A DNA stretch of 35,804 bases from Syntrophobacterales bacterium (GTDB taxonomy: Bacteria > Desulfobacterota > Syntrophobacteria > Syntrophobacterales > Thermodesulforhabdaceae), in contig JALXAE010000295.1 of the NCBI GenBank assembly GCA_026992355.1, forward strand, positions 1 to 35,804. Reading direction: 5' to 3'. The notes beneath the pieces are model-generated. The model did not search any database. It worked only from the letters and a program-made list of their open reading frames with translations, and was not told the DNA's origin. Shown piece after piece: positions 16,791 through 35,509 of the stretch (position 1 is its first letter; each line of letters opens with the position of its first letter). Position numbers and translations under genes: made by a program.

Positions 16791-19700
16791 GCAAGAGGGC
16801 TCCCAAGATGACTGAAGAAGAACTCAGATACTTTGAAAAACTCAAAAAAGAGAGAGCAGGTGCTGCAACATATTTCAAGAAATCGTTTCTGAAGGGAATT
16901 TGGAGGAGTATTACAGAGAAGTACTCTGAGCAGGCACATTTTGTCTATGAACTTCTTCAGAACGCGGACGATGCCAAAGCCACTAAAGCCCGTTTTGTAT
17001 TGTCAGAAAGCGGACTAATTTTCGCTCATAATGGTAAAGTGCATTTTTCAATTACCAATCCTGATTCTGAGAGGGAGGAGAAAGACAGGATTAGGGGAAA
17101 GCTTGGACACATCAATTCCATAACATCAATCGGTAGCAGTTCGAAATCAGCGGATGAAATAGGGAAGTTTGGGATTGGTTTCAAGTCTGTGTTTCAATAT
17201 ACCGACACTCCTCATATCTATGATCCCCCATATACCTTCAAGATAAATGATTATATTGTTCCCCAGTTACTGGAAAAAGACCATCCGCTACGGAGAAAAG
17301 GGGAGACGTTATTCTGGCTCCCTTTTAATTCTGAGAACAAACTTCCTGAGAATGCTTTCAGCGAGACGAGAAATAGACTCCAGAAATTAGAAAATCCATT
17401 GTTGTTTCTTAGAAACTTACGCGAGATTGAATGGAATATTTCGACTGGAGACGAAGGTTTTTATATTAAAGAAAGTGACAAAAAAGGCGACACCTCACAA
17501 ATCAAATTACTGCATATGGTAAACGACTGGGAAAACGAGCAGTCGTTCAAGGTGTTCGAGAAGAAGATAGTACTTACTGAAAACAATAAAGAATTATACA
17601 TTCATATTGCCTTTAAGTTAGATGAAAAAGGCAAGATAGTATATATTGAAAAGCATCCTTGTTACTGCTTTTTCCCCACCAAAGAGCATACGGGTTTACG
17701 CTTTATCATACAAGCTCCCTTTATGCTTACAGACAGTAGAGACCTCCTCAAAGAAGAAGACCCTGTCAATAACAGATTAATTAAGCTTCTTGCCCAGTTC
17801 ATGGTAGAAGTCCTACCTAGACTCAAGGAAGATGGCAAACTAGATATTTCATTACTTAAAGCACTTCCTATATACGAGGAAACAGCGGAGAAGTTCAAGC
17901 CACTGTATGACAGTGTACTCGAAGAATTAAGGAACGGGGCTGAGCTTTTGCCTGCTGAAGATGGCAGTTACGTCGGCTGCACATCGGCTTTATTGGCAAG
18001 GGGTAGAGAGCTAGTGAAGTTATTAAACAGCGAACAACTCTCTCTCCTATTCGAAAAACCAGGTACAAAATGGATTTCTTCTGAGGTTACTGAAAACAGC
18101 GAGTTGTGGGATTATCTCAAGGACAAGTTGGGCATAGAAGTTATAAGGCCCGAAGACATCGTGGAGAGACTCTCCGAAAGTTTCTTAAAAGCTCAAACTG
18201 ATAATTGGCTTGTTGACCTGTATAAATTCCTGCGCAAGAGACGTGACTTGTGGAATAAGTTGAAAAAAAGACCTTTCATTAGACTCTCTGATAATTCACA
18301 TGTTACACCGTTCAACAGTGCTGGAGAACTACAAGCATTTCTGCCAACCGATAACGATTCACCCTATCCTACTGTAAAGAGAACTATTGTAGAAGACAAA
18401 GAAGTGAGAGCGTTTTTGGAAAATCTTGGTTTGCACCCGCCAGATGAAATCGCTGAAATTACAAAATTCATCCTTCCAAAGTACAGAGCTTCTCAAGATA
18501 TCCCAGAAGCCGAAAACCTCGAAGATGTCCGTAAGATAAATAAAACGCTCAAAAAAACCGACGATCACAGCTTCTTAGAGCAGCTAGCTGACACCCCCTT
18601 TTTGGCAGCAGATAACTGTGCAACCGGTAGAACCGAATACAAGAAACCCACTGAGATATATCTCACTCAAGATTTTACGAAAAACAAAGACATTGAAATC
18701 TATTTTGAAGGAAATCCTGATGCTTATCTTCTAAATAGAAGATATAGAGAATTTGATAGTAGCTTTTTTAGAAAGTTAGGATGCTCTGACAGGATCAAAG
18801 TATTCTGCCGCAAACCCAATTGGTCAGGTTACGTCCCCATCGTAGACTACCATTCCCACCATAAAAGGGGAAGAGAGGGTTTCGATCCTGGTTGCAATAT
18901 AGACGGGCTGGAACACGCGCTGAAAAACATTAATCTAGATAAGGCCCATATAATCTGGAATCTTCTACTGAAGTACTGGAAAAGCATTAAAGGGGAAGTC
19001 GAATTCAGTACGAGGCAGGATTATGTTGACTCTGAAATAGAAAACCAGCTTTCAACTATGGGTAGGCTTGTGCGAGAACACCGGTGGTTGCCTGACAAAG
19101 ACGGAAAATTCCATCACAGATTTGAAATCCGACTGGAGGATCTCCATGAAAAACTGGAGAAAAACAGCCTAGAAGCACAAATGGTAGCAAGGAATATTGG
19201 CCTCAAGACAGATATCGATGAGGAAGTCGTAAATAAATTGCCTTCCAACGTAAGAAGGATACTCGAGGTTTTTAAACCATTTGGACATTTGCTTGATGAG
19301 GAAGAGATCCTCGAAGAAATGAAGTCCCTGTTGGCAGATAAAGACAAGGCCTACAGAAAGACAGTGAAAGAAGAACCAGCTGATAGTTTTAGCTACCAAG
19401 AAGAGTTCAGAAAGGCATTTTCTAAACGACAGATAGGATCCTCGCGTGAGCATATTCCCCCTAGTGAACTCCCCAACCCTGAGAGAAGAATTGCGGGAAT
19501 TAAAGAGGAAATTAACATTAGCAAAACAAATGAACCACTGGTCATTGAGAGATTCAAGAGAGTACCTATAAAAAAATGGGAGCAAAAGAATTTTGAAGCA
19601 AGGACTTTTCTGAAAGAACAATATGGCGGCAGGTGTCAAATATGCAATTACTCTTTTGATAAGAGAGATGGAGAGCCCTATTTTGAAGGTGTTTACTTAG

Positions 19701-19969
19701 TCTCAAGAACAAAGGCAAGATGGATAGATAGACCGGGGAACATCCTCTGTTTATGCGCCAATTGCTGCGCAAAATTCACACATGGAACTGTGGAAGCACC
19801 TGATATTTTGGACCAGATAGAAAACATACGAATAGATCACGCAGAAGAAGATGAGTTATCTTTGAAAATAATACTTTGCGGAAAAGAAGAGACCATTAAA
19901 TTCACGAAGAGACATATGCTAGATCTACATGCTATAATTCAATCTGAAAACCAAGAAAGAGAAGCCTAA
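16787..19969 (+). CDS. Sacsin/Hsp90-like (GHKL) ATPase protein with C-terminal degenerate HNH-like zinc module
   Basis: 1060 aa; VYELLQNADDAKATKARFVL, FAHNGKVHF, GKFGIGFKSVFQY; C-terminus GRCQICNYSF...EPYFEGVYLVSRTKARWIDRPGNILCLCANCCAKF; ATGA overlap with helicase. Confidence 0.88.
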   Translation: MSKRAPKMTEEELRYFEKLKKERAGAATYFKKSFLKGIWRSITEKYSEQAHFVYELLQNADDAKATKARFVLSESGLIFAHNGKVHFSITNPDSEREEKDRIRGKLGHINSITSIGSSSKSADEIGKFGIGFKSVFQYTDTPHIYDPPYTFKINDYIVPQLLEKDHPLRRKGETLFWLPFNSENKLPENAFSETRNRLQKLENPLLFLRNLREIEWNISTGDEGFYIKESDKKGDTSQIKLLHMVNDWENEQSFKVFEKKIVLTENNKELYIHIAFKLDEKGKIVYIEKHPCYCFFPTKEHTGLRFIIQAPFMLTDSRDLLKEEDPVNNRLIKLLAQFMVEVLPRLKEDGKLDISLLKALPIYEETAEKFKPLYDSVLEELRNGAELLPAEDGSYVGCTSALLARGRELVKLLNSEQLSLLFEKPGTKWISSEVTENSELWDYLKDKLGIEVIRPEDIVERLSESFLKAQTDNWLVDLYKFLRKRRDLWNKLKKRPFIRLSDNSHVTPFNSAGELQAFLPTDNDSPYPTVKRTIVEDKEVRAFLENLGLHPPDEIAEITKFILPKYRASQDIPEAENLEDVRKINKTLKKTDDHSFLEQLADTPFLAADNCATGRTEYKKPTEIYLTQDFTKNKDIEIYFEGNPDAYLLNRRYREFDSSFFRKLGCSDRIKVFCRKPNWSGYVPIVDYHSHHKRGREGFDPGCNIDGLEHALKNINLDKAHIIWNLLLKYWKSIKGEVEFSTRQDYVDSEIENQLSTMGRLVREHRWLPDKDGKFHHRFEIRLEDLHEKLEKNSLEAQMVARNIGLKTDIDEEVVNKLPSNVRRILEVFKPFGHLLDEEEILEEMKSLLADKDKAYRKTVKEEPADSFSYQEEFRKAFSKRQIGSSREHIPPSELPNPERRIAGIKEEINISKTNEPLVIERFKRVPIKKWEQKNFEARTFLKEQYGGRCQICNYSFDKRDGEPYFEGVYLVSRTKARWIDRPGNILCLCANCCAKFTHGTVEAPDILDQIENIRIDHAEEDELSLKIILCGKEETIKFTKRHMLDLHAIIQSENQEREA

Positions 19970-19984: not shown

Positions 19985-21028
19985 TTACTCCCAAACCCTG
20001 AAAGCATGCACCCTTCCCTTAACCCTCGCTCTCTCTGCCTTCACAAGCTTCAGCTCCGTCATCCTCTTCATGTATAAGGAATAGGTCCTGCTCGCTACAG
20101 GTTTCCAGTTGTTGGCCTCGCACCTCTGGAGATAGGCCTGATAAAGCTCGGGAGACGAAATCCCCGGGTTCTCTTCGATAATGCTGTACAGCAACCTGTG
20201 GTGCTCGGTGAGCCTTTTCAGCTCATACGTGCGCCGCAGCCCACCTGTGTCATTGTAGCCCTTCTCTATGTGCTCTGGCATAATCCTCTCACAGCCTTCG
20301 GACTGGGCATAAGAAGCCGCGTTCCTCAGCGTCTGGATAGCAACCCTCGCATCTCCCCCAGCAATCTCAGCCACGAGCTCAAGCGTTCTTTTGTCCCATG
20401 CTCTGGGGTGCAGCGCCCCCGCAGCCCTCTGGGTGAGTATCTCCACCAGCTCATCAACTGTGTAGGGCCTGAACTCAAGGGTGTAGGGGTTCAACCTCGA
20501 GCGCACCCGGTCCTCCAGAGCAAGTATGGGGTACCTGCTCTCACTTATCAGAATAAGCCCGACGTTCCCGACGTTTGAGAGATTGTATATCATGGTGTTT
20601 CTCTCCTTGAGGGGCACGACATCGATCTCATCGAGTATGATTATGAATGGCCTGTCTTTCACGAGCCGCTCAAATTGGACGAGTTTAACCCTCTTGTCCC
20701 TCGCATCTCCAAAACCCCTCCTCAGCTCGCCGAGTATGTACTCCAGCACAGCATAAAAGGTGTTGTGCTTCCAGCAGTTCACATACACGCCGGGGATGCC
20801 TTTCTCCCTGTTCAGCTCCCTGAGCATGTGGCTTGCAATAGTGGTCTTCCCGGTCCCTGGACATCCGTAGAGCCACACTGAACGTGGCTTTCTCCCTGAA
20901 AACACAGGGGCAAGACAGGTACTGAGCTCGTTCACATGCGTATTTCTGGCAGAAATTATATGCGGTATATGGGTCTCGCTCAAAATAGCGTCATCGAGAA
21001 TCAGGCCCGGGTCGTTTTGTTTATACAT
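19985..21028 (-). CDS. cdc6: Orc1/Cdc6-family replication initiator ATPase
   Basis: Likely start MYKQNDPGLILDD; VWLYGCPGTGKTTIASHML, IIILDEIDVV, LISESRYPILALEDRVRSRL, sensor-2-like GGDARVAIQTLRNAASYA, C-terminal winged-helix-like region. Confidence 0.9.
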   Translation of the reverse strand: MYKQNDPGLILDDAILSETHIPHIISARNTHVNELSTCLAPVFSGRKPRSVWLYGCPGTGKTTIASHMLRELNREKGIPGVYVNCWKHNTFYAVLEYILGELRRGFGDARDKRVKLVQFERLVKDRPFIIILDEIDVVPLKERNTMIYNLSNVGNVGLILISESRYPILALEDRVRSRLNPYTLEFRPYTVDELVEILTQRAAGALHPRAWDKRTLELVAEIAGGDARVAIQTLRNAASYAQSEGCERIMPEHIEKGYNDTGGLRRTYELKRLTEHHRLLYSIIEENPGISSPELYQAYLQRCEANNWKPVASRTYSLYMKRMTELKLVKAERARVKGRVHAFRVWE

Positions 21029-21060
21029 ATTTAGCGATAAGATATACGGGCTTAAAAAAC
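21028..21060 (-). promoter_or_regulatory. Candidate archaeal promoter of cdc6
   Basis: Minus strand GTTTTTTAAG with TTTAAG about 28 nt upstream of ATG. Confidence 0.4.
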
Positions 21061-21126
21061 CATATACGTGGGATTTGCGGTCTTTGCGGATAATGTCTAC
21101 GAAGAGAAACAAGGCGGAAGATCCCT

Positions 21127-21160
21127 CGAAATTTATAAGCCTCCGAAACAATTCAATACC
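21127..21160 (+). promoter_or_regulatory. Candidate archaeal BRE/TATA promoter
   Basis: CGAAATTTATAAGC with TTTATA about 28 nt upstream of ATG 21161. Confidence 0.5.
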
Positions 21161-21337
21161 ATGAGGGAACTAGAAAAGAGGCTTGTTCGCGGTCTCTTAT
21201 ATGCCGTGGCAGCGCTCTCGGCAGGTCTGCTGGTCTACACGACTTTATTGCACATAGATCCCCCGAATGCCGTGCCCATAGTTTTCTACTTCGCACTTTT
21301 CTCGATATGCCTTTATGTGCATGAACGTTATTTCTGA
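21161..21337 (+). CDS. Small membrane protein (two predicted TM segments)
   Basis: MRELEKRLVRGLLYAVAALSAGLLVYTTLLHIDPPNAVPIVFYFALFSICLYVHERYF. Confidence 0.55.
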   Translation: MRELEKRLVRGLLYAVAALSAGLLVYTTLLHIDPPNAVPIVFYFALFSICLYVHERYF

Positions 21338-21464
21338 GGGGATCGCTCGTGTCAAGAGAAACGAAAACGGAGCGAGGCGGCCGCAGACTCTGCACCCGGG
21401 GAGGGACGGGAGATAAACGGCGGGCGGCATGGCCTTCCTCAGGGATTCCCTCGCCACCCATGGC

Positions 21465-21994
21465 CTATCCAATCCTTGCAGGGCAGTTATCCTTGAAAGA
21501 GCAAGCCTCGCACTTCGCCCGGCTCTCATGATTTCTCTCAACAGGCCCTTCGGCTTGGATATCCATATCCCTCATCTCCTGCATGGTTTCCATCAACCTT
21601 TCCCGGAGCCTTTCATCAAACTCAATCCTGAACTGTTTCCTGTCTCCATACACAAGGTAACCGTAGGGGACCCGGGTACTGTATTTTTCTTCGACAAGGA
21701 GACAGTAAGCTGCAAGCTGGAGCACATGGTTCTCAAAGGGTGTGTCTGCAAGGGTGTTCTTTATCTCCACGGGGATAACATCACCGTTTTGCCTCACTAT
21801 GTAATCCGGCTTCCCGACAAGGCGATATCTGGAAGAAAACAGCGGCTTTTCCACTTTTTCAGGGTTCAGGTCGGAATACATGACATCTCCGTCCACAATC
21901 CCATGTGCCTGCACAGTCCGTGATGCCGCCTTCGACATCATCCATGCGACGACAATCAAAGCGATTCCCATTATGATGACAACGGTTATCATGC
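21465..21994 (-). CDS. Cas4-like PD-(D/E)XK exonuclease, C-terminal part, with N-terminal TM segment
   Basis: Start MITVVIIMGIALIVVAWMMSKAAS at ~21992; GKPDYIVRQNGDVIPVEIKNT, HVLQLAAYCLLVEEKY, KCEACSFKDNCPARIG. Confidence 0.8.
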
Positions 21995-22258
21995 CAACCA
22001 CATCACAACTCCTATAAGCGCAAGAAATATCATCAAAAGCCCGATCCATAGCAGAATTCTGGAAGTCCTTTTCATCCTCCCCGCCTTCTCAAGCCCATCT
22101 CCAATCTCCACGTGTCTCTTCCTCCCAGCGAGAATCAAGGGGCTTTCTGGGGTGTAACCTCTCTTTTGCAAAAACCACGCTACTGAACAGAACTTGTATT
22201 GTCCGATTTCAGACGCTTTTATTATTCCCTGCTTTCCTCTCCGTGCATCGTTGCTCAT
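21989..22258 (-). CDS. Cas4-like N-terminal part with C-terminal TM segment
   Basis: IIKASEIGQYKFCSVAWFLQKRGYTPESPLILAGRKRHVEIGDGLEKAGR... ILLWIGLLMIFLALIGVVMWLA*; ends in an ATGA overlap with the next gene. Confidence 0.75.
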   Translation of the reverse strand: MSNDARRGKQGIIKASEIGQYKFCSVAWFLQKRGYTPESPLILAGRKRHVEIGDGLEKAGRMKRTSRILLWIGLLMIFLALIGVVMWLA

Positions 22259-22327
22259 TATGGCACCCGCGGTGTTCCCAATGTTTAATACTTAACGTAC
22301 CAATTTTAATCTTTGTCAGGTTCCCTC

Positions 22328-24250
22328 TCAAACCCTGACCCCCCAAACCTCATCAAACCCCGCGTCCAGGCACTTCTTCATGTTGTAGGCCACATTGCTC
22401 TTCCCTGTCTCGATTTCCACAGCCACTTTCCTCCCGTCCCTGAACAAAGCCAGGTCAACTGTTCTGCCCCCGCCTATTGGATACTCCTCAACAACGCGCC
22501 AGCCCTCAGACCTATACTTCTCTGCGAGCCTTTTCTTCGCAAGCTCATGCTCCACGCCGCCGCCTCTGTGCGACTTTCCAGGCTGTACACCCATGCTTTT
22601 CAGGGCATCCCTGGCCTTCTCCGTCAATTCAAGTACCTTGAGCCTTGCCCTGCTGGCCTTGACATCCCTCACAGTCACATAGCCCCTGGAAATGAGACCC
22701 TCCTTCGCCTTGTTTCCCTGATAAACATTGAGCCCCAACCTCTCGTACCGCTCTGTGACAGGGGAAACCGGGTATTCATGGATGTCCCGAAGCAAAATCT
22801 CCTCGTTTTTCGTCAAGGTCACGGGACCTGATTCGGACATTTTCAGGACATTTTCAGGTCTTTTCAGGACATGGCCATATACCTTCTCCTTACCAAATGC
22901 CTTAAACCCCGCCCTCTCCATTCGCTCCGCTATGTCCTCATCCGTGACCTGACCTTTCCTGACCTTGACCAGCGGGAACTTCACAAGAAACGGCTCGAAC
23001 CAGCGGCCCTGCAGCTTGACCATCGCAAAGCCTGTCTCCAGCTTCCCAAGGTATCTGGCCTGCTTCGCCTCGATGAGCAAGGAATCAGCGATCATTGAGA
23101 TGTCGCTCCTGTGCTTCAGGTTCATCGCGATGGTGGTGTATGTGTTCCCGAGGGCCGGCTTGCTTATCAGGCTCGGGTGCTGGTCAATGAGAACCACTGC
23201 CTCGCCGAGCTCCCTGATCTCCCTCAAAATGATATCTGTGATGGCTTCCTCGCCCGAGGCTTCCTGCTTCTTCCTCAAAAGTATGTGGTGGGCTTCCTCA
23301 ATGATGAGGGCATGCCTAAACTCCTCCCTGCCCTGCTGACCAAGCCTGTAGTGGTGTATCCATAAAAGCAAGCTCTCGATGAGAAAGGTCTTGTCCGAAT
23401 TGGTGAGGCTGTCCAATTCCAGAACAACATTTCTCTCAAGGAGGCCTGCCAGATTCACAGCATCCCTGCGGTTGATTACACGCGACACCTCGCCGAAGCA
23501 AAGCACCCCCACGGCCCTGAGAGCAGACTCCATCCACGAAGCTTCCCTTCCCCGGGCTTTATATCTCTCCAGCCATTCCCTGACATCCATGAAGGTCGGC
23601 CACTCATGCTTGTTCCCGGAGTAAACGCCGAACTCCCTGTACACGCTGTCCATGGCCTTTTGCAGAAGATAGGCAACGCCCTCGCCAAGGAAATACGCAT
23701 GGCAGAGTATCTCTATCAGCTTTTTCAGCCACACCGCTGGCAGCGTTCCGTCAGGTGGTATGAGGGGGTTGAACGAGAATGGAGACACTGGCCTGCCAAC
23801 AGTGAAAACCAGTATCTCCCTGTCCGGTACCAAAGCGAGCAAATCCCTGTAGTTCCTCTTCCAGTCAAAAACAAGAAAGGGCTTCCCCCTGGCGAGGAGA
23901 TTCAGTACAATCAGAAAAGCGGTGTTCGTCTTGCCGGAACCCGAGCGGCCAAAGACCCCGACGTGCTGGACCCACTCCCTTTCTCTCAAACCGAACCAGC
24001 CGAAGATCTGCCTGCCGTAGACCACGAGCCCCAAAGGGTATTCTCCCGAAGCTATGTCCTCAGCAGGCGGTTCGAGCAGGACCTCCTTTTCCTCAAATGT
24101 TGCCTTAAGCCTCCGCGCAAGGCTTATGCGCAAGGAATTTTCGATGGCTTTTCTGCCGCCGCTGTCAGAAAGGATGTACTCAGCCCACAGCCTGGCCATG
24201 TCCATACCGGACACGGGTTTGAGCTTCCTGAAAACATCCTCGATTCTCAT
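22328..24250 (-). CDS. HerA/VirB4/TraG-like ATPase with winged-helix and C-terminal restriction-endonuclease-like domain
   Basis: 640 aa; HVGVFGRSGSGKTNTAF, PFLVFDWKRNYRDLL, HALIIEEAHHILL, VVLIDQHPSLIS; C-terminal EEYPIGGGRTVDLALFRDGRKVAVEIETGKS. Confidence 0.85.
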   Translation of the reverse strand: MRIEDVFRKLKPVSGMDMARLWAEYILSDSGGRKAIENSLRISLARRLKATFEEKEVLLEPPAEDIASGEYPLGLVVYGRQIFGWFGLREREWVQHVGVFGRSGSGKTNTAFLIVLNLLARGKPFLVFDWKRNYRDLLALVPDREILVFTVGRPVSPFSFNPLIPPDGTLPAVWLKKLIEILCHAYFLGEGVAYLLQKAMDSVYREFGVYSGNKHEWPTFMDVREWLERYKARGREASWMESALRAVGVLCFGEVSRVINRRDAVNLAGLLERNVVLELDSLTNSDKTFLIESLLLWIHHYRLGQQGREEFRHALIIEEAHHILLRKKQEASGEEAITDIILREIRELGEAVVLIDQHPSLISKPALGNTYTTIAMNLKHRSDISMIADSLLIEAKQARYLGKLETGFAMVKLQGRWFEPFLVKFPLVKVRKGQVTDEDIAERMERAGFKAFGKEKVYGHVLKRPENVLKMSESGPVTLTKNEEILLRDIHEYPVSPVTERYERLGLNVYQGNKAKEGLISRGYVTVRDVKASRARLKVLELTEKARDALKSMGVQPGKSHRGGGVEHELAKKRLAEKYRSEGWRVVEEYPIGGGRTVDLALFRDGRKVAVEIETGKSNVAYNMKKCLDAGFDEVWGVRV

Positions 24251-24313
24251 CCTCTCCCCTATTTATCTGAAGTCCGAATAGCCCTAAACACCTCCGGGAG
24301 GGCTTAAAAGCGC

Positions 24314-24820
24314 CTATTTCTTCTCCCCGCGGCCTAACACCCCGCTCTCAAGCACCTCAGCCGTCGCCTTCAGGGTTTTGTACTCCATCTCCAGTTTTCT
24401 CCGCTCCCTCTTCAAACTCAGAAGATCTGAGAAGGCTTGCCTTTTCTCTGCCCTCGCCTCGCGGTACAAAGACAAAAGCTCCCTCTCGAGCGCGGTCCTC
24501 CTGCTGTCCACTGATGGCCGATACCCCGGGGAAAAGTGTTCGATCTCCATCAAAAGCCGTGAGACCTCGCGCCTCAATTCCCTGAGCGAAATCTGGAAAA
24601 CCTCGCTGACAGCAGATCTCAGACCTATCTCAGTGTCTATCTCCTCGAGGGCGTCGCGCAACACCGAAAGTCTGGAACCGAGACTGCTAGCAAGCGTATC
24701 GCCTGTCTCCCCATGCTCTTCAGGTCCCAGCAAATCATTGAGGGAGAGACCGTCGTCTAGGAATTCCGCGAAATCTTCAGGCCACTCCTCGAACCCCGGC
24801 AGGCGCTTTTTCTCTTTCAT
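24314..24820 (-). CDS. Coiled-coil hypothetical protein
   Basis: 168 aa, Glu/Arg/Leu heptad-like; MKEKKRLPGFEEWPEDFAEFLDDGLSLNDLLG...; upstream of the ATPase gene on the same strand. Confidence 0.65.
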   Translation of the reverse strand: MKEKKRLPGFEEWPEDFAEFLDDGLSLNDLLGPEEHGETGDTLASSLGSRLSVLRDALEEIDTEIGLRSAVSEVFQISLRELRREVSRLLMEIEHFSPGYRPSVDSRRTALERELLSLYREARAEKRQAFSDLLSLKRERRKLEMEYKTLKATAEVLESGVLGRGEKK

Positions 24821-24936
24821 GTTCAGGGCTTGAGTCTATTGGGAAGGAAAAATAAACGCTCTCCAGAGAAGGGATGCGGATTTTACGGGAGAGCAAAGAC
24901 AAGAAAAAGCAGACGGGGCAACAGACCCCGCCTCAA

Positions 24937-25080
24937 TCAGTTGTTCTCGAAGTCGTACTGGTGCCTGAGTGTGTTTTTTCTGTGGTTCTTTATGGCCTGC
25001 ATCTGCAGCTCATACAGAGTGTTGAGAATTTCTATGGCCTTCTCGATTCTTTTTATTTCAGCTTGTTTCTTTTCGTCCAT
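24937..25080 (-). CDS. Small helical protein
   Basis: MDEKKQAEIKRIEKAIEILNTLYELQMQAIKNHRKNTLRHQYDFENN, preceded by AGGAGGT on the minus strand. Confidence 0.5.
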   Translation of the reverse strand: MDEKKQAEIKRIEKAIEILNTLYELQMQAIKNHRKNTLRHQYDFENN

Positions 25081-25456
25081 AGTTGGACCTCCTGTTTTTA
25101 GAAGAGAAAGTTTCCCGGGAAATTTCTCTCTACTATATGGCCGAAATTCTATCAAAAAAAATCTTTGTTTGGAACTTTGGATGCCCCTTTGCCCAGCACT
25201 TTCATCGCTTTAATTGCTTGATTATTCGCTTTGTTTGCTGACACCTTAAAACGCTTTCAATTTGCTTTGTCAGTTCACTGTGCAACTTCAATATTATGAA
25301 TCATACATAACTTTGCTGTGCTAAGCCTGTTGGCTTGCACAGTTTGCTTTACCAAAACATGTGAGAAAATCCCTTCTATTCCCGCACACATAGGCTGATT
25401 TTAATTTTTTTCTCAAATTTCTAATTTTTCCCCTTGACTTCCTGAAAAAATGTGTT

Positions 25457-25492
25457 ATTTAGTTAATCAAATAATTATTCGGATAACTAAAT
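25457..25492. promoter_or_regulatory. Candidate operator: 9-bp perfect inverted repeat upstream of the SorC-like gene
   Basis: ATTTAGTTA (25457-25465) / TAACTAAAT (25484-25492), 18-nt spacer. Confidence 0.5.
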
Positions 25493-25524
25493 TTTTATTC
25501 GCTGGTACGAGTTAAAGGTTGGCA

Positions 25525-26466
25525 ATGCGACGACGAGACATTTACTACGATCACAATACGATGTACATGGTCCTTCATTACAAATTCGTAGAAGACCTCA
25601 AGAATTATCAAATTGCAAAGGAGGTTGGCATCTCCCCCAGCACTGTAGCGGAATATCTGGACATTGCCAGGGAACTGGAGTTTTACAAAGTCTTTATAGA
25701 CTTTGCTCCAGAAAGCAAGGCAGCAAAAGAATTAATGCTGACTTTTGGCCTCAGAAATGTTGTTGTCTCTCCGTCAGAATTCGGCCTGCACGAACTGGCC
25801 CTGCTTGGAGCGCGGTTCCTCGTAAAAGAGGTTATCAGAGATGATATATCCATAACAGTGGGGGGTGGCACAAACATCTGGAAAATGGTGTGCTCCCTGC
25901 CAACGCTCGCCAAAGAAAGAGTCCAGATTTATTCCATGTGCGTCGGAGATCACTTCCTGGCTGAGATTTCATCCAGCATGGTGGCGAATGTCTTGTTTTA
26001 TCGCCTTTACGAATACGGTGGAAAGCTTCACGTATTCCCGGCTTTTGCCAATCTAAACGCTGATCCGCCAGACAGAAACTGCGAGGTGTACAGCAATGCC
26101 GCAAACGCGGATGTTTTCCTTGTTCCCTTCGGTAGCATCGAAGAGGGTACAGGCGGAAGAGTCGTCAAACAGGAGTTTCGTTTGGATATAGCCAATCTCA
26201 GGAAGAATAACGTTGTCGGCTTTTGCGGCTACCACCTCATCACTGGAGATGGAGAACACTATCCGTCCAAAGAGATTGAGGAAAGAGTGTTTAGCATTGA
26301 CCTTGAATCTCTCAGGAAGGCATCATTCACTGAAGGCAAGTATGTAATCGGTGTTGCGTTTGGAGAACAAAAGACGCACGTGGTCAAAGCAGCGCTTCGA
26401 AAAGGGTACATAAACACACTGTTCATCGATGACAAACTGGCCAGGGCCCTTCTCGAGGACGAGTGA
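25525..26466 (+). CDS. SorC/DeoR-like transcriptional regulator (HTH + sugar-binding-like domain)
   Basis: HTH DLKNYQIAKEVGISPSTVAEYLDIAREL; SorC-like core LRNVVVSPSEF...LGARFLVKEVIRDDISITVGGGTNIWKMV...ADVFLVPFGSIEEG. Confidence 0.75.
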   Translation: MRRRDIYYDHNTMYMVLHYKFVEDLKNYQIAKEVGISPSTVAEYLDIARELEFYKVFIDFAPESKAAKELMLTFGLRNVVVSPSEFGLHELALLGARFLVKEVIRDDISITVGGGTNIWKMVCSLPTLAKERVQIYSMCVGDHFLAEISSSMVANVLFYRLYEYGGKLHVFPAFANLNADPPDRNCEVYSNAANADVFLVPFGSIEEGTGGRVVKQEFRLDIANLRKNNVVGFCGYHLITGDGEHYPSKEIEERVFSIDLESLRKASFTEGKYVIGVAFGEQKTHVVKAALRKGYINTLFIDDKLARALLEDE

Positions 26467-26521
26467 ACCTCAAACAAAGGAGATGTCAGATGGAAAAGAC
26501 AACAAGATTGCTTTCCTCCCA

Positions 26522-26539
26522 AAGAGGCCTGAGCCTCTT
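26522..26539. other. Short hairpin (7-bp stem, 4-nt loop)
   Basis: AAGAGGC-CTGA-GCCTCTT. Confidence 0.4.
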
Positions 26540-26583
26540 CAGATATACCATAAGAAGTAGGTCTAATGAGAGAGGAGTACAGG

Positions 26584-26787
26584 ATGGGAAACAAAGGAAA
26601 GAAAAATGGCGGGTACCAAAGAAGGGAATGCCCTATCCTTAGAAAGAGGGTGTTTGACACCATGGGCAAAAAGGAGATGGTGTTCATCTGCAAGGGATGC
26701 AAGCTTAAATGCCCAATCCATGTTGTCGAATTCAAGGAAATCTACATCGAATGTAAAGTATGCCCGCATAAACTCAAAATAGCATAG
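26584..26787 (+). CDS. Small Cys-rich (zinc-binding) protein
   Basis: MGNKGKKNGGYQRRECPILRKRVFDTMGKKEMVFICKGCKLKCPIHVVEFKEIYIECKVCPHKLKIA. Confidence 0.6.
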   Translation: MGNKGKKNGGYQRRECPILRKRVFDTMGKKEMVFICKGCKLKCPIHVVEFKEIYIECKVCPHKLKIA

Positions 26788-26833
26788 ATTTTCAGCTTTA
26801 ATAGTTCAAGAGGCCAGAGGCCTAAGAGTCCAG

Positions 26834-26866
26834 AGCCCCGTTTCTTTAAGGAACGGGGCTTTTTTA
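26834..26866 (+). terminator. Bacterial-type intrinsic terminator
   Basis: AGCCCCGTT-tctttaagg-AACGGGGCT followed by TTTTT. Confidence 0.85.
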
Positions 26867-26957
26867 TTCACCGCAAAACCCATGGAGAGGAGGTGATGCC
26901 TATGATTGCCCAGAGTTGCATAGCCCGATCACAAAAAAATGAAAGGAGGGATGTCAA

Positions 26958-27659
26958 ATGCTTAGAGACAAAAAGTCAGGCGGCAATGGCGACGGATTCG
27001 CGGCTGAGGAGAGCAGTTTTTCCTCACTTCTTGACAGGGCATCGATCGATGACGATCCCGTGGTCAAGGAGGCCATGGATTTGGCCAAAAACATTGTGAG
27101 GGAAGTCTCGAAAATTGCAAGTCTTGTTGTTGGTGAGACTCTCGAGACAGTGAAACCCCATATTGAGAAGTACCGCCCAGAGCACATGTCGCAGGCAGAG
27201 ATCGCGAAGGAGAAAATCCGGAGCGATAGCGAGAAGCACAAAGCTGAACTTGAGTTTCAGGCGAAGATGAGACAATTGGAGATCGAGTTCATGAAAGCCA
27301 ACGCTGAACTGTCTCTCAAAGCGGTGAATGAGAAGATGAAGATAATTGATAAAGTCCTGATGACACCGTTGGAGAAGATGAAAATGCGCGAGAATATCAG
27401 GAAGGAAGCGCTGGAGAGAACCACGGATCTCATGAGGAACAGGTTCGGCTTTATAAGTAACGCCAAGAAGCAGCTCGCGAAGTTCTACGCTGATTTGGAA
27501 GTTGAGAACCATATGAGGAAACTCGAGGAGGAACAGCAGCGATATATCCACAACATCAGGGGCTTACTGAGCAGTGACTTGCTCACTTCATCTCCAGCGA
27601 AGCTTGCACGCCCAAAGACAAACCTGCTCCAGATTCTCGACAATGATGAGGAGGAGTGA
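26958..27659 (+). CDS. Coiled-coil hypothetical protein
   Basis: 233 aa; EKYRPEHMSQAEIAKEKIRSDSEKHKAELEFQAKMRQLEIEFMKANAEL...; preceded by AGGAGGG; coupled to the next gene. Confidence 0.7.
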   Translation: MLRDKKSGGNGDGFAAEESSFSSLLDRASIDDDPVVKEAMDLAKNIVREVSKIASLVVGETLETVKPHIEKYRPEHMSQAEIAKEKIRSDSEKHKAELEFQAKMRQLEIEFMKANAELSLKAVNEKMKIIDKVLMTPLEKMKMRENIRKEALERTTDLMRNRFGFISNAKKQLAKFYADLEVENHMRKLEEEQQRYIHNIRGLLSSDLLTSSPAKLARPKTNLLQILDNDEEE

Positions 27660-29684
27660 GTGAGAACAGGGCTGGCCTCATTGAGGAGAAAAGCGAATTG
27701 CATCGCGCGAAGATTTCCGAGATTTTCGTATCCGGAGGTCAAAAAGCTTCTCTACGATGAGATCCAGCCCCTCCTCCCAACCACAAGGTTCAGGCACTTT
27801 GAGACACTTCTCGCAAAGGCGAGGATCAACAGCAACCAGAGGCTGCTGAATTCCATAGGCGTGGAGCTCATGCTCATCAAACACAGCAACAGGGAAAAGC
27901 CGCCGTTTGAGAAGCTTGAGTACCCGACGCTGCACCCGTCATCGCACATTCTCAAGACAGGCACGACGGGCTCAGGGAAAACGAAGTCTTCAAACATAGA
28001 TGTCATAAGAACCGCCCTTGAATACCCGGAGACAACCCAGATCGTCATAGATGTTGAGGGCGACAGGGGGCCGGATATCATTTCAAAGCTCGAGGAGAAC
28101 GGCTACCACGACTGGTGGTACTTCGATCATACAAGCATCAGGGAATGCATGTTCGAGCTCCAGAGATGCAGCGAAATATGGTTTTCGTGGCTCGCAAGGG
28201 TGTTTCTTGAGGCCGCTATGTTTGGGGACATCGGAATGAAAACAATCCTTGACGGTTTCGAAGCCTCCAATTCCCCGGAATTGATGGCGAGGAGAGGAGG
28301 CTACCCCACATACGAGGAGTTCGTGGGTGATTTCTCAAAGATGAAGGCTAGAAAGGGCAGCAAAAGAGAGGGGTACAATGAAGTGGCCCATGAGAGGTTC
28401 AAGATGTTTCTCTACTCAATAGGTCCGCTTTTCAACTCCCGCAGAAGCTTCCCATGGGAAAAGCTGAGCGGCGTTGTGATATACGACCTGACAGCGGTTC
28501 CGCACGACGGACAGATTTTCTTCCAGAACTACATGGCCACAAAGATGCTGTTCATAAGAACCTTCCTGACGGATGACAGAGCGCCGATAATCTACGACCT
28601 CGATGAAATGAGCCAGTTCTGGTCAGCCGCGGACCTGTCATTGAGGCGGGGTTCCATAGAGATGCCCATAATAATCTTCCTCGCGAGGAGATCGAGAAAA
28701 AGAGGTATCTTCATATCCTACAAGGACCAGATGAGAAAGACAGTCCCTGAGGAGATATCGAGCCAGTGCGGAGCGCAGTTCATTTTCAGACACACCGGCC
28801 AAAGCGATTTGAGACAGATAGGCGACGAGCTTAACCTGAACACGGATCAGCTCAGGTTCATAGCGAGGATGCCTGACAGGCAGTGCGTTTTCATTCTCCC
28901 CGGGATGATTCAGCCAGCGGTGGCAGAGGTGCCGTATCTTGATACGAGCAGCAACATGTCACTTGATGAGATAAATGAAATCATGTGGGCGAAGCTCAAA
29001 ATCATGGAGCACGAGGAAAGCGGGTCACAGGAAAGGGTTCTGCTGGTCGATGACGAAGACGGGCAATCCCATGACAGGGAAGAGATAAGCGAGAGCGAAA
29101 AGCTGGCTGATATCCTCAACATCGTTGCCAGATATCAGGGCCACCCTCTGAGTAGGGCTGAGCAAAGCTCAGAGATGGATTACCACGAATTCTGGGCTGG
29201 AATCGAAAAACTCGAGCAGCTTGGCCTCATAAGAAAGGAAAAAATCAGCCTTGGGTTTCCCGGGAGACCTCCCTGGTTTGCAGAGATAACTGAGAAGGGA
29301 GCGGAGTTTCTTGGCGTCCCCCATGAAACCCTGAAAATGCAGGGTAAAAACAAAACACTCAAGGCAAAGGTCATGTGCTTCATGGTTGCCGAGAAACTGA
29401 AGGAAGGGGGATGCATCCCGGTGATGGAATTCAGCGGAGCCGACATTGCGGTTTGCGACAGCGGCGGCAGGATTGAGTGTTTCGAAATCGAGACATCGGC
29501 GAACCAGCACATCGCTGAAAACATAAGGCGGGATATCTGCGACATAGGGGCTGAGAGCTGCACAGTGATAATGACATCGAGAAACCTCGTGGATAAAGCG
29601 AGGAAGATGTGCGAGAGCGGGCTGGAATCCGAGGTCATGCAAAAAACCCGCTTTGTGACACTGAGGGGTTTCATTAACCCATAA
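27660..29684 (+). CDS. VirB4/TraG/HerA-like ATPase with C-terminal winged-helix and nuclease-like domain
   Basis: 674 aa, GTG start; HILKTGTTGSGKTKSSNIDVI, APIIYDLDEMSQFWSAADLSLRRG, FLARRSRKRGIFISYKDQ; C-terminal FSGADIAVCDSGGRIECFEIETSAN. Confidence 0.82.
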   Translation: MRTGLASLRRKANCIARRFPRFSYPEVKKLLYDEIQPLLPTTRFRHFETLLAKARINSNQRLLNSIGVELMLIKHSNREKPPFEKLEYPTLHPSSHILKTGTTGSGKTKSSNIDVIRTALEYPETTQIVIDVEGDRGPDIISKLEENGYHDWWYFDHTSIRECMFELQRCSEIWFSWLARVFLEAAMFGDIGMKTILDGFEASNSPELMARRGGYPTYEEFVGDFSKMKARKGSKREGYNEVAHERFKMFLYSIGPLFNSRRSFPWEKLSGVVIYDLTAVPHDGQIFFQNYMATKMLFIRTFLTDDRAPIIYDLDEMSQFWSAADLSLRRGSIEMPIIIFLARRSRKRGIFISYKDQMRKTVPEEISSQCGAQFIFRHTGQSDLRQIGDELNLNTDQLRFIARMPDRQCVFILPGMIQPAVAEVPYLDTSSNMSLDEINEIMWAKLKIMEHEESGSQERVLLVDDEDGQSHDREEISESEKLADILNIVARYQGHPLSRAEQSSEMDYHEFWAGIEKLEQLGLIRKEKISLGFPGRPPWFAEITEKGAEFLGVPHETLKMQGKNKTLKAKVMCFMVAEKLKEGGCIPVMEFSGADIAVCDSGGRIECFEIETSANQHIAENIRRDICDIGAESCTVIMTSRNLVDKARKMCESGLESEVMQKTRFVTLRGFINP

Positions 29685-29710
29685 ACCCAAAAAGAGAAGG
29701 AGGAACAGTC

Positions 29711-30334
29711 ATGCCAGATCCGGATACCTTTTTACAGCTATCAGCAGGGCACCATCAAAACACCGTGAATAAACCATCGCAGGGAGACATGCTTGACAGT
29801 CTTGAGCGCTCGATTGAATCGAACCCGCATCTTCCACATGTTCCGCCGCACGAGCCAAGGGAGTCAAGGATTCTGAGCGCTGTGGAAAACCACACAATGG
29901 GATACAACCCACAGTCTCCACTTGCTCCGAATCCAGTGGTCCCTGACCCTGTTTCCATTGATCCGAACCCATCGCCTCCGGGAGCCACGAAGTACAACCC
30001 ATTCCAGGAAAAGGTTTTCGTCGATCCCGCGGTGGCTGATGACAGGTTCAGACACGGTTCCTTCCCATCCCCAAAGGTCGAGGGCTACGCATGGAAGGAG
30101 CAAAGGATTTTCTACAGGGAACCGCCGGTCCCAAAGCCAAGGTTGGGGAGCACCCCGAAGATGAGGTTGTCGGACGACAAAAGCATGACATACTGCCCGA
30201 AGAGAAAAGAGCATGTGAAGATAGAAAAGGTCTGCAAGAAATGTCCGGAGTATGACCCGAACCTTGGCATCTACGACAACTGCAAGCTGAAAAAGAAGCA
30301 GGCAAACAAGCTTGCAAAAGCATCCAGAAAGTGA
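29711..30334 (+). CDS. Pro-rich protein with C-terminal four-Cys tail
   Basis: 207 aa; tail YCPKRKEHVKIEKVCKKCPEYDPNLGIYDNCKLKKKQANKLAKASRK; GGAGGA upstream. Confidence 0.7.
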   Translation: MPDPDTFLQLSAGHHQNTVNKPSQGDMLDSLERSIESNPHLPHVPPHEPRESRILSAVENHTMGYNPQSPLAPNPVVPDPVSIDPNPSPPGATKYNPFQEKVFVDPAVADDRFRHGSFPSPKVEGYAWKEQRIFYREPPVPKPRLGSTPKMRLSDDKSMTYCPKRKEHVKIEKVCKKCPEYDPNLGIYDNCKLKKKQANKLAKASRK

Positions 30335-30349
30335 TGGAGAGGTCGGAAG

Positions 30350-30574
30350 ATGAGTAGCCCGAGAAACACGTCAAAAAGGCCCATGAACATCCATCCGGGT
30401 ATGCTGAGGAGAAATATATCAGTCAGGGAGCCCGGGGACGTCTACTGCCCGGAAAGAGCTGATTATGTGGACTATAAGTCGGTCTGCAAGAAGTGCCCTG
30501 AATTTGACGAAGACCTCGTCATTTACTACAATTGCAGGCTGAAAAAGAAGGAGTCAAACAAGCTTTCCGCATAA
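30350..30574 (+). CDS. Small four-Cys protein paralogous to the tail of the preceding gene
   Basis: YCPERADYVDYKSVCKKCPEFDEDLVIYYNCRLKKKESNKLSA. Confidence 0.7.
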   Translation: MSSPRNTSKRPMNIHPGMLRRNISVREPGDVYCPERADYVDYKSVCKKCPEFDEDLVIYYNCRLKKKESNKLSA

Positions 30575-30599
30575 TCAGCACAGGGCAGGAGAGGAGCTT

Positions 30600-31271
30600 A
30601 TGGGTGGAAAAAAGGAGGAGAACCTTCAGCCAACATGGAAACCGACAAAATTTGCATGGGCGATGATCTTTTGTACTGCATTGGTGATGCTCTTTCTGGT
30701 CGTGTACTTCATAAACAGATACCGACCGGAGTGGTTACAGGGGAGCCATAAGCAGAGTAATATCCAAGTGGTCCGGGAAACTCCTGGAACGCATTATCCA
30801 GAGCCATCAAAGGAAGAAAACGAGAAATTAGAACTTCTGTCAAACCTTGCGAACGTGCCATTTGTGGTTGAGAAGTCTTTTATCGTTGAAAAATCTGATG
30901 AGAATGAAAGTGGTGACAGAAAATATATCAAACTTTTTCTTAAATCAAAAACAGCAGACTGCAGGGTGATTCTCACAATTGATGCATGGGATGAAATAGA
31001 CATGGGTAGAATTCAATATATGCAATGGAAGGATGAGCGTATCAAATCTTTTTTGAAAAGGTTAAAGGGATGTTGCATTTATTTTGCGAGAATTTCTATT
31101 AAACATATAAATCCGGAGCATGATGATTGTATGTGCAAAGCCATGTTTGAAGGCGCGTCTCCTTCTTTGGAGAGGGAAAACGGAAAGCTTATTGGCTATG
31201 CAAGCGGCCAAGCTGATGATTTCACATGGGTTTATCTAAAACCGATTGAGATTGAAAACCCAAAAAAATGA
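30600..31271 (+). CDS. Hypothetical membrane-anchored protein
   Basis: 223 aa; N-terminal TM FAWAMIFCTALVMLFLVVYFINRY; soluble remainder. Confidence 0.65.
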   Translation: MGGKKEENLQPTWKPTKFAWAMIFCTALVMLFLVVYFINRYRPEWLQGSHKQSNIQVVRETPGTHYPEPSKEENEKLELLSNLANVPFVVEKSFIVEKSDENESGDRKYIKLFLKSKTADCRVILTIDAWDEIDMGRIQYMQWKDERIKSFLKRLKGCCIYFARISIKHINPEHDDCMCKAMFEGASPSLERENGKLIGYASGQADDFTWVYLKPIEIENPKK

Positions 31272-31313
31272 CTAAACCATTTGCTCTTTACATCATGATT
31301 CGCAGAGGTTATT

Positions 31314-32510
31314 ATGCCGCCCGTAGCGATACCACTACAAGACAGGATAGGTTTCTGCATGAAGGGCGGCATCTATGCCTACAGAGAAAAGTGCCCGATC
31401 TGCGGCAGTTCTTTCAAAGACAACGGCCGAAACGCCTTAGTTTGTCCCAACCATCCGAATCAGAAAGCGACGAGATTTCAGGTCAAATTCGGCAAAATCT
31501 GCCACAGATTCAAAAGCTACGAAGCCGCGAGCAGGTTTCTCACAGGCCTGAGATACAAAACAGATGAGGGCTCTTTCGATGAAAGGGATTACAGGAAGGA
31601 CCTCCCCTTAAGCTTCCAGAACCTCGCCGAGAAATGGCTCAGGGTAAAAAAAGAGAGCGTCAGGCCGAAAACATACCGAAACCTCAGGAACGATATCGGC
31701 AAGGCAATAGCGTGCTGGGGCCACAGGAACATAAAGGAGATCGGGTACGCGGAGATAGAGGATTTCATCCTTGAGCAGAATGTCTCGCAAAAAACAAGGC
31801 ACAACATCTGCTCGTGCCTTCACGATTTCTGGACATGGCTCCTCAAGCGGAGGGTCATAAAGCTCCACGAGTTCCCGGAGTTCCCTGAGATAAAATACGA
31901 GCTCAGGTACCGGAGGGTCATAGACAAGGAAACCCAGGAAAGGGTTCTTGATGAGATATGGGGAATAAGCCACAAGGTTAATCCGAAGATATGGCTCGGC
32001 ATCAAGTGGCTCTGCACGTACATATCAATACGGCCGGGGGAGCTGATAAAGATCAACGAGGAGCACATAGACCTGAAAAACGGGTACCTCTTCATCCCCA
32101 CCCCGAAGGAAAAGAAAGCCAAAAATGTTCCGCTGTTAGAGGAAGACATAAAAATACTGGAAGCGCTGCCGAGGGGATTCCCAAAAATGCCATTTTTCAG
32201 GCACGAAAAGGGGAACGGAGCCGCAAAGCCGGGGAGCAGGTTTGGCAAGGACTATCTCTACAAATGGTGGAAAAGGGCCTGCAAAAACCTGGGAATCGAG
32301 GGGGTCGATCTCTACGGCGGAACAAGGCACAGCTCGGCAATGGCCCTGAGAAAATACAGAACGCCTGAGGAAATCAAGCGCGCGACAATGCACTCCACGA
32401 ACAAGGCATTCGAGAGATACTTCCAAATTGAGGGAGATGAGCTGAGGAAGGTCTACTCGGATTCAAAGCCCTCAAGATCTTCTGGGAAGATATTCAAGAT
32501 CCCCGGATAA
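31314..32510 (+). CDS. int: Tyrosine-type site-specific integrase with N-terminal zinc finger
   Basis: 398 aa; CPICGSSFKDNGRNALVCPNHP; IKWLCTYISIRPGELIKINEEHI, YGGTRHSSAMALRKYRTPEEIKRATMHSTNKAFERYFQ; ends 115 bp from the tRNA-Leu 3' end. Confidence 0.9.
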   Translation: MPPVAIPLQDRIGFCMKGGIYAYREKCPICGSSFKDNGRNALVCPNHPNQKATRFQVKFGKICHRFKSYEAASRFLTGLRYKTDEGSFDERDYRKDLPLSFQNLAEKWLRVKKESVRPKTYRNLRNDIGKAIACWGHRNIKEIGYAEIEDFILEQNVSQKTRHNICSCLHDFWTWLLKRRVIKLHEFPEFPEIKYELRYRRVIDKETQERVLDEIWGISHKVNPKIWLGIKWLCTYISIRPGELIKINEEHIDLKNGYLFIPTPKEKKAKNVPLLEEDIKILEALPRGFPKMPFFRHEKGNGAAKPGSRFGKDYLYKWWKRACKNLGIEGVDLYGGTRHSSAMALRKYRTPEEIKRATMHSTNKAFERYFQIEGDELRKVYSDSKPSRSSGKIFKIPG

Positions 32511-32547
32511 CACATCATCCAGCCAGCGAAATGAAGGCCTTTCACAC

Positions 32548-32573
32548 TGCTACAGTGCTACTCCAATGCTACT
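32548..32573. repeat. Three short TGCTAC direct repeats between int and tRNA-Leu
   Basis: TGCTAC at 32548, 32556 and 32567. Confidence 0.4.
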
Positions 32574-32577
32574 CTTT

Positions 32578-32609
32578 TCAGGGGTGCTTCAGATTCGCAA
32601 CCCCCTGAA
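32578..32609. other. Inverted repeat/hairpin between integrase and tRNA
   Basis: TTCAGGGG ... CCCCTGAA. Confidence 0.5.
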
Positions 32610-32624
32610 ATCAGGGCAAAAAAA

Positions 32625-32710
32625 TGGTGCCGAAGGCCGGACTCGAACCGGCACGGGTCTCCCCACCACCCCCTCAAGATGGCGTGTCTACCAGATTCCA
32701 CCACTTCGGC
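32625..32710 (-). tRNA. tRNA-Leu(GAG), CCA encoded
   Basis: Minus strand GCCGAAG..CCATC-TTGAGGG-GGTGG..GCCGGTTCGAGTCCGGC-CTTCGGC-A-CCA; long variable arm; anticodon GAG. Confidence 0.93.
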
Positions 32711-32718: not shown

Positions 32719-33195
32719 TTATTTTTTATGTGGTTCGGCTGCCTTGCCACCAGCCGATGCGTTCGCGCCGGCATGAACCGGAGCACTGTTTGTAGCTTTT
32801 GTTGCCGGCGATGAAGCCTGTTTTGCCTGCTGGTTTTCCTTTACTTCCCGGCCTTGAGCAGCCGGCGCTGTTTTTCCCGGTTCAGTGGCAGCCTGTTTCT
32901 GCTGCGTTTGCTGAACCGGTGCACTCTGGGTTGCCTTTGTTTTTTTCATGATGGACGTTGTTCCCGGCTTCGTTGAAAAATAGGCCAGGAGCAAACAGGT
33001 CATCATGAAAACCGTTGCAACGCCAATTGTTAACTTGTTAAAAAAGGTGTTGCCACCAGTGGAACCAAACAGAGTCTGGGTGGATGTACCACCAAAAGCT
33101 GCCCCGATATCAGCACCTTTTCCCGTCTGCAAAAGAACTATCAGGATCAAAAAGAAACAGACAATAACGTGTATTATTAAAATAGCACTAATCAT
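32719..33195 (-). CDS. secG: Preprotein translocase subunit SecG with extended Ala/Gln/Thr-rich tail
   Basis: LILIVLLQTGKGADIGAAFGGTSTQTLFGSTGGNTFFNKLT. Confidence 0.93.
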   Translation of the reverse strand: MISAILIIHVIVCFFLILIVLLQTGKGADIGAAFGGTSTQTLFGSTGGNTFFNKLTIGVATVFMMTCLLLAYFSTKPGTTSIMKKTKATQSAPVQQTQQKQAATEPGKTAPAAQGREVKENQQAKQASSPATKATNSAPVHAGANASAGGKAAEPHKK

Positions 33196-33211
33196 AAAAA
33201 AATCAACCCTC

Positions 33212-33973
33212 TTAAGCCTCGAATCGGACTATTCGCAAGAATGAATCGACTTCCAGACTTGCACCCCCTACCAGCGCACCATCAATATCATTTTCACTCA
33301 TCAACGAATCGGCATTATTCGGTTTTACACTTCCACCATACAAAATTCGAATTTCGTTTGCAACGCTTTTATTTGTCAACATTGCCAGGTGCTCTCTTAT
33401 AAAAGCGTGTACCTCCTGCGCCTGCTGCGGACTTGCCGTTTTACCGGTCCCGATAGCCCATACAGGTTCGTAAGCTATCACCACCTTGGCCACGTCCACG
33501 GAATCCAGGCCATCGAGTCCGCCGTCTATTTGGGACTTTATTACTTCGAACGTTTTTCCGGCCTCACGCTCTTCGAGCCTTTCTCCCACGCAGAAGATGG
33601 GTCTTATACCAACTTTTATCAAGGCTTTCAACTTTTTATTTATATCTTCGTTTTTTTCTCCGAAATATTGTCTGCGCTCCGAATGCCCGACAATTGTATA
33701 CGAACATCCGACGTCTTTCAACATCACAGGAGAAATTTCCCCCGTGTACGCGCCTTTTTCTTCCCAGAAGCAATTTTGAGCCGACAGAGAAAGCCACGAG
33801 GGACTCACAAGATCCTTTAAGGGATAAAGTGCCGTAAACGGTGGCGCAATAACAACTTCGCGATCTTCCAGGGTATCAATTTTTTCGGTTAGTCTTTTTA
33901 CAAATTCCACTGCTTCATCGACCGTTTTATACATCTTCCAGTTTGCGGCAATACAAGCAATCCTTGTTGACAT
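33212..33973 (-). CDS. tpiA: Triosephosphate isomerase
   Basis: AANWKMYKT, YTIVGHSERRQYFGE, VVIAYEPVWAIGTGKTA, ILYGGSVKPNNA. Confidence 0.97.
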   Translation of the reverse strand: MSTRIACIAANWKMYKTVDEAVEFVKRLTEKIDTLEDREVVIAPPFTALYPLKDLVSPSWLSLSAQNCFWEEKGAYTGEISPVMLKDVGCSYTIVGHSERRQYFGEKNEDINKKLKALIKVGIRPIFCVGERLEEREAGKTFEVIKSQIDGGLDGLDSVDVAKVVIAYEPVWAIGTGKTASPQQAQEVHAFIREHLAMLTNKSVANEIRILYGGSVKPNNADSLMSENDIDGALVGGASLEVDSFLRIVRFEA

Positions 33974-33990
33974 GGTTTCCTCCTCCGCCT

Positions 33991-35508: not shown

Positions 35509-35509
35509 A

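Follow-up and report, generated by a model that had tools for sequence, protein, structure and literature searches.

In this study, we analysed a window of 35,804 bases, which is the entire contig JALXAE010000295.1 (C295) of the Syntrophobacterales bin GCA_026992355.1 (3.2 Mb in 319 contigs, 99% complete and 3.9% contaminated) and in which a gene for an Orc1/Cdc6-family replication initiator lies in DNA that adjoins a bacterial tRNA-Leu(GAG) gene. The original prediction, which was made from the letters of the window, had seen positions 19985-32710 as an archaeal-looking element and had offered two readings, a mobile element that crosses domains and resides in a bacterium, or a chimeric assembly. 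As described below, the mobile element stood and the chimera did not, as the attachment (att) cores, the integrase and the composition all spoke against the latter. The features that define the two sides of the junction, and their counterparts on a second contig of the bin, C53, are as follows:

1-32650, no strand: integrated element, right-hand part of about 32.6 kb (att cores, hsdS joining in frame, trinucleotide usage)
422-2537, minus: 5' half of hsdS, cut by an IS21, and hsdM; the other (3') half is on C53, as is hsdR
31314-32510, plus: tyrosine integrase with an N-terminal zinc ribbon, start possibly at 31359 (Pfam and PHROG integrase matches)
32623-32650, plus: att core of 28 bp, AATGGTGCCGAAGGCCGGACTCGAACCG, which is the tRNA-Leu 3' end (exact repeat at C53:6429-6456)
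32625-32710, minus: tRNA-Leu(GAG) with CCA encoded, the integration target (tRNA prediction)
32719-35803, minus: flank with secG, tpiA, pgk and a partial gap (family matches for the first three; gap fragment visible)

The copies of the 28-bp core on C295 and C53 are exact and have the same orientation, i.e., they are direct repeats as expected for integration. A second att copy that was sought inside the window was not present there; the one further occurrence of the tRNA 3' end sequence in the bin, a partial copy of the gene, is on C53. The end of C53 encodes the C-terminus of IstB from an IS21, and the start of the window encodes the N-terminus of IstA. Moreover, the 5' half of hsdS (window 422-958) and the 3' half (C53 25167-25880) restore one in-frame HsdS of 424 aa over a 6-bp CCCATT target duplication. 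Because the IS ends match and hsdS is restored in frame, the contigs can be ordered as C53 - IS21 - C295, and therefore one element of about 54 kb lies between the direct att copies, continuing leftward from the window over the IS21 into C53:6429-26291. The extent that was originally proposed thus covers its right-hand part only. Despite the IS21 in hsdS, hsdM and hsdR look intact.

The composition, which was measured as the normalised trinucleotide usage of three-kb pieces, stays even along the element on C53 and C295 and shifts exactly at both cores; the suggested k-mer comparison on either side of 32.6 kb therefore placed the change at the core itself. The window pieces of the element correlated with the C53 part of the element mostly at 0.80-0.95, with the C53 outer flank at 0.42-0.67 and with the two outer flanks overall at 0.3-0.7. 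The right flank past the tRNA gene showed the reverse, with a correlation of 0.63 with the C53 part of the element and of 0.87 with the C53 outer flank; taken as wholes, the two outer flanks resemble each other at 0.86. A chimeric break near 25 kb, where the genes rich in Shine-Dalgarno sequences begin, was also considered and ruled out; with a correlation of 0.95 between the integrase-side segment and the Cdc6/HerA segment, the composition is continuous and hides no break at this point.

The claim that an integrase sits beside the tRNA 3' end as in a true integration was borne out, with 115 nt between the end of the integrase gene (32510) and the tRNA 3' end and with an att core at both ends of the element. 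Relatives of this integrase, which are 41-57% identical, were found in bacterial genomes of the phylum (Desulfobacterota), and of the 20 closest loci, 13 have a tRNA or tmRNA gene beside the integrase gene at a distance of up to 170 nt, with the 3' ends facing each other and the same geometry as here. The N-terminal zinc ribbon is common to these bacterial relatives and is therefore no archaeal sign, so that the zinc ribbons lose their value as archaeal markers. The uninterrupted arrangement that had been asked for in a related genome was present on another contig of the bin, C159, where tpiA-secG-tRNA-Leu is followed by a gene for an EAL-domain protein, though in a different organism. The join at 32.6 kb is genuine, as three independent lines, the att cores, the integrase and the composition, agree.

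The host flank corresponds to the predicted secG-tpiA-pgk-gap order and is bacterial. The bin, however, has two tpiA-secG-tRNA-Leu loci, one on C295 and one on C159 (at about 10260-11660, locus L047), whose TpiA proteins are 60% identical, while tpiA is single-copy in each of 24 relatives. In a TpiA tree, the C159 copy is nested in the family of the bin and the window copy stands just outside it. The flank of the window is therefore probably from a second bacterium of the same order, whose DNA entered the bin, and not from the main organism of the bin. The composition of the element correlates with that of C159 at 0.90, and the window contig was perhaps drawn into the bin because its element resembles the bin in composition.

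The replication-like gene set and the features next to it are as follows:

19985-21028, minus: Orc1/Cdc6-family AAA+ initiator (TIGR02928, Cdc6_lid); reading frame open to 21151
21465-22049, minus: C-terminal part of a Cas4-like PD-(D/E)XK nuclease with one transmembrane segment (TIGR00372, 87.8 bits, cut-off 65)
21989-22258, minus: N-terminal Cys motif and transmembrane segment; belongs to the Cas4-like gene, which is split or frameshifted here (sequence reading)
22328-24250, minus: HerA-like ATPase that has a winged helix and, at its C-terminus, a PD-(D/E)XK-like tail (Pfam DUF87; CedD-like, 85 bits)
24314-24820, minus: small coiled-coil-like protein preceding herA (position like that of small open reading frames by HerA in loci L114 and L115)
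25160-25518, no strand: AT-rich gap that holds every TTYGCTTTR copy of the window, three in number (candidate origin or operator)
27660-29684, plus: divergent second ATPase of the HerA/VirD4 superfamily, with a winged helix and a nuclease-like tail as in the first

The Cdc6 protein belongs to the Orc1/Cdc6 family, as had been predicted; it scored 192.1 bits against TIGR02928 (cut-off 181.3) and 57 bits against Pfam Cdc6_lid (cut-off 27). Its best relative in the PDB is the Aeropyrum pernix Cdc6/Orc 2v1u (E=5e-26). The start is likely the ATG at 21028 because the homology begins near residue 50. The alignment showed an intact Walker A motif (GCPGTGKT), Walker B motif (ILDEID) and GDAR motif. 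ORC/Cdc6 structures took all of the top 23 places among the fold matches of the predicted model, although the overall superposition was poor (TM 0.3-0.4).

When 72,556 plasmids were searched, the matches listed (the 15 best and 60 spread over the results) were all archaeal, with the best at about 35% identity, and a search of contigs gave one match, namely a Cdc6 from Woesearchaeota (29%). In the tree, the window Cdc6 grouped with Cdc6/Cdc18 proteins of haloarchaeal plasmids and viruses (support 97/97), while the Cdc6 proteins of three other genomes of the phylum, G375, G377 and G223, formed a clade of their own (100/100) on the opposite side of a supported split. Because the window protein and the other bacterial proteins occupy separate parts of the tree, this suggests at least two transfers of Cdc6 into bacterial elements; the tree holds 19 sequences with thin sampling and long branches, which makes the number of transfers provisional. 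Within the bacterial clade, the identity is 70-77% between three families of the phylum. Proteins above the family cut-off were found in G375, G377, G223 (two near-identical copies), the window and G060. The last of these (C158, locus L003; 395 bits) was set aside, as it lies on a contig of 1480 bp that is probably archaeal contamination, and a 398-bp match in G010 was set aside likewise. The G223 locus is duplicated on C290 and C24 (loci L059 and L060), with proteins that are mostly 92-99% identical, which would fit recent mobility or duplication.

On the minus strand, the small coiled-coil-like protein is followed by the HerA-like ATPase, the Cas4-like nuclease, whose gene is spread over two overlapping frames, and Cdc6. 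No CRISPR genes were recognised near the Cas4-like nuclease. Strong HerA relatives (E below 1e-70) were found in seven other genomes among the 396 of the phylum. The bacterial relatives were 28-48% identical over their full length, with 48% in G141, 40% in G310 and 42% in another genome. In G375, which is a single contig of 4.8 Mb, and in G377, Cas4-like and HerA genes lie within 8 kb of Cdc6, and their HerA is homologous to that of the window from end to end (28%, 241 bits). In G223, the distance from Cdc6 to HerA and to a Cas4-like gene is about 10 kb. By homology and gene neighbourhood, the Cdc6-bearing gene set thus recurs in other bacteria of the phylum. The bacterial Cdc6 loci also contain ArdC, DUF6094, Replic_Relax and ScpA-like proteins, neighbours that suit plasmid-like elements. 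The second ATPase of the window could be aligned with HerA (hhalign, 94.5%, 421 columns), and in G141 a relative of it is encoded about 20 kb from HerA, near a further integrase. No relaxase was found among the proteins scanned, which comprised those of the window and part of those of C53; the two HerA/VirD4-type ATPases are present.

The TATA boxes reported upstream of three starts fared unevenly; ATATAAAT is present at -28 of the 12831 start and TTTTTTAA at -31 of 21028, but the supposed start at 21161 opens a frame of only nine codons and is not a gene. TATA-like matches at 16 element genes exceeded those in composition shuffles (p=0.001), and Shine-Dalgarno matches were present in 62% of 16 element genes vs 94% of 16 integrase-side, restriction and flank genes; these gene sets were chosen after looking, which makes both comparisons suggestive only. 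The genes cdc6 and xer, as well as several genes on C53, have TATA-like boxes without a Shine-Dalgarno sequence, whereas the integrase-side genes have strong Shine-Dalgarno sequences. The term archaeal-looking consequently suits Cdc6 and, in part, the promoter signals, but not the whole element, as the closest relatives of its integrase and HerA are bacterial and come from the same phylum. The AT-rich gap at 25.16-25.52 kb, with a palindrome at 25457-25492, may be considered a weak candidate for an origin or operator, its motif having been picked post hoc. When MCM was sought in G000, G375, G377 and G223, no match exceeded 33 bits, and E. coli showed the same background; an MCM-loading role for Cdc6 is thus unlikely here. 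If Cdc6 does initiate replication, an alternative hexamer is needed because the carriers have no MCM above background.

Taken together, these observations show that an integrative mobile element of about 54 kb occupies the bacterial tRNA-Leu(GAG) gene, and it is probable that Cdc6 serves as the initiator of its excised circle. The integrase would recombine the core on this circle with the identical stretch in tRNA-Leu, and the circle would replicate from a Cdc6-bound origin, possibly the repeat-bearing gap at 25.2-25.5 kb. Cdc6, which probably derives from an archaeal plasmid and virus pool, would load another hexamer, either the HerA-like ATPase of the element or the host DnaB, while the two ATPases and the Cas4-like nuclease may process or move DNA. 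That Orc1/Cdc6 fires an origin in MCM-free bacteria through an element-encoded HerA-family hexamer (or DnaB), and that this arose at least twice in the phylum, is a more tentative proposal, which we put forward as possible.

Several observations weigh against this interpretation. The middle of the IS21 is unassembled, so that the joining of the two contigs rests on hsdS and the IS ends, and the evidence for the joins consists of assembled contigs. To the left of the far core there is another integrase instead of host genes. The C-terminal winged helix of Cdc6 (PF09079) scored 23.2 bits, just under the cut-off of 25.1, and the mean pLDDT of its model was 63, with low confidence at the C-terminus. 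Next to cdc6, only weak ORB-like pairs of 10-16 nt and no convincing origin repeats were detected. Additionally, most carriers of the HerA module in the phylum are without Cdc6, and Cdc6 is therefore not essential to this module.

Among the other explanations, an anti-phage defence module, in which the Cdc6-like ATPase would sense and HerA and the nucleases would degrade, is unlikely. In its favour, the set has defence genes around it, pairs of HerA and a nuclease are known from defence systems (PADLOC matches to HerA and mad8) and the HerA/Cas4-like pair of G141 lies near restriction-like genes together with a non-Cdc6 AAA ATPase. However, the ATPase of the window is a true TIGR02928 member, the other bacterial loci have the plasmid-type neighbours ArdC, DUF6094, Replic_Relax and ScpA-like proteins, and archaeal plasmids carry this Cdc6 clade in proteins annotated as Cdc6/Cdc18 or Orc1 replication proteins. 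It is rather improbable that Cdc6 is a non-functional passenger from an archaeal plasmid that is silent in the bacterium. The archaeal-like promoter signals with a cdc6 that has no Shine-Dalgarno sequence, the missing MCM partner and the split Cas4-like frame would fit a passenger, but the cdc6 frame is open with its three motifs intact, and the separate bacterial clade was kept at 70-77% between three families, which implies its use there. Finally, a false fusion of archaeal element DNA to a bacterial contig at the tRNA gene, by assembly or binning, is very improbable. The bin is indeed mixed, with a second tpiA-secG-tRNA-Leu locus where its relatives have one, and there is a sharp step in composition at 32.6 kb. 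This break, however, coincides exactly with the att core, the second copy lies about 54 kb off where the composition reverts, a bacterial tRNA-gene integrase adjoins the junction and the closest HerA relatives are bacterial.

The remaining features of the window are as follows:

4071-7061, minus: SIR2 and class II prokaryotic Argonaute (PADLOC Aga_SIR2 435 bits, pAgo_II 671 bits)
8443-10086, plus: OLD-family ATPase/nuclease, defence cargo (PADLOC Old 239 bits)
11575-12831, minus: second tyrosine recombinase, XerA-like, with a C-terminal zinc ribbon (PF00589, 87 bits)
13689-19969, plus: SNF2 helicase (DrmD-like) and TmtA-like ATPase (defence cargo)
25519-26466, plus: SorC/DeoR-type sugar-binding regulator (PF04198)
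26958-27659, plus: protein of 233 aa directly preceding the second ATPase, without a family match (Pfam and PHROG scans)
29711-30334 and 30350-30574, plus: two related Cys-rich (zinc-ribbon-like) small proteins (sequence reading)

Beyond the Cdc6/Cas4-like/HerA set, the cargo consists mostly of defence systems. The SIR2/Argonaute pair is probably one two-gene defence system, and the DrmD-like helicase, which overlaps the TmtA-like ATPase with its C-terminal HNH-like motif, possibly forms another with it. The second recombinase scored 122.8 bits against NF040815, below the cut-off of 220, and no strong relative of it was found in 346 genomes of the phylum. The Cys-rich pair had no Pfam match. 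In the left part of the element (C53 9228-17424, locus L048), there are GtrA/GT2 and GT2 membrane glycosyltransferases and a secreted endonuclease/phosphatase. Further to the left on C53, beyond the far att core, an unrelated second integrase (5228-6400) and a DUF3854/DUF3631 primase-helicase-like protein seem to belong to a second element at the same tRNA site (1353-6400), in tandem with the first.

Replication is started by DnaA in bacteria and by Orc1/Cdc6 with MCM in archaea and eukaryotes, a split that is usually taken as domain-wide. Bacterial elements that keep a motif-intact Orc1/Cdc6, in two clades and with conserved neighbours, make its initiator function in bacteria directly testable and allow the question of which helicase it recruits in a bacterial cell to be asked. 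Such elements are, in addition, a record of genes passing between the mobile elements of archaea and those of bacteria.

Compared with known systems, the Cdc6/Cdc18 proteins of haloarchaeal plasmids and viruses (Halolamina pCBA1230-01, Halobacterium GN101 megaplasmid 2 and virus LSV-48N) are in the same clade as the window protein at 30-35% identity, and in GN101 a PD-(D/E)XK nuclease gene follows the Cdc6 gene, which resembles the Cas4-like/Cdc6 neighbourhood of the element. These replicons, however, have archaeal hosts with MCM, whereas the present element sits in a tRNA gene of a bacterium and has an integrase of a bacterial family. The integrated elements of Thaumarchaeota likewise have a tyrosine recombinase, and some encode a Cdc6/Orc1 initiator, but they differ in their archaeal hosts (PMC6563490). 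Orc/Cdc6 relatives have also been listed as virus-associated in archaeal islands (PMC4158269). A literature search, with most subscription papers outside its reach, found no report of Cdc6 on bacterial (integrated) elements. The HerA-like core is similar to that of the CedD/HerA translocases, with CedD as the best NCBIfam match at 85 bits, far under the cut-off of 600, but the proteins of the window differ by the added winged helix and the C-terminal nuclease-like tail. Bacterial tRNA-integrated islands share with the element the integrase at the tRNA 3' end, the direct-repeat att core, the defence cargo, the IS insertions and the tandem element, yet an archaeal-type Orc1/Cdc6 initiator is not normally known from them. 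The locus thus belongs to the known class of tRNA-integrated elements and has a replication gene set that is unusual.

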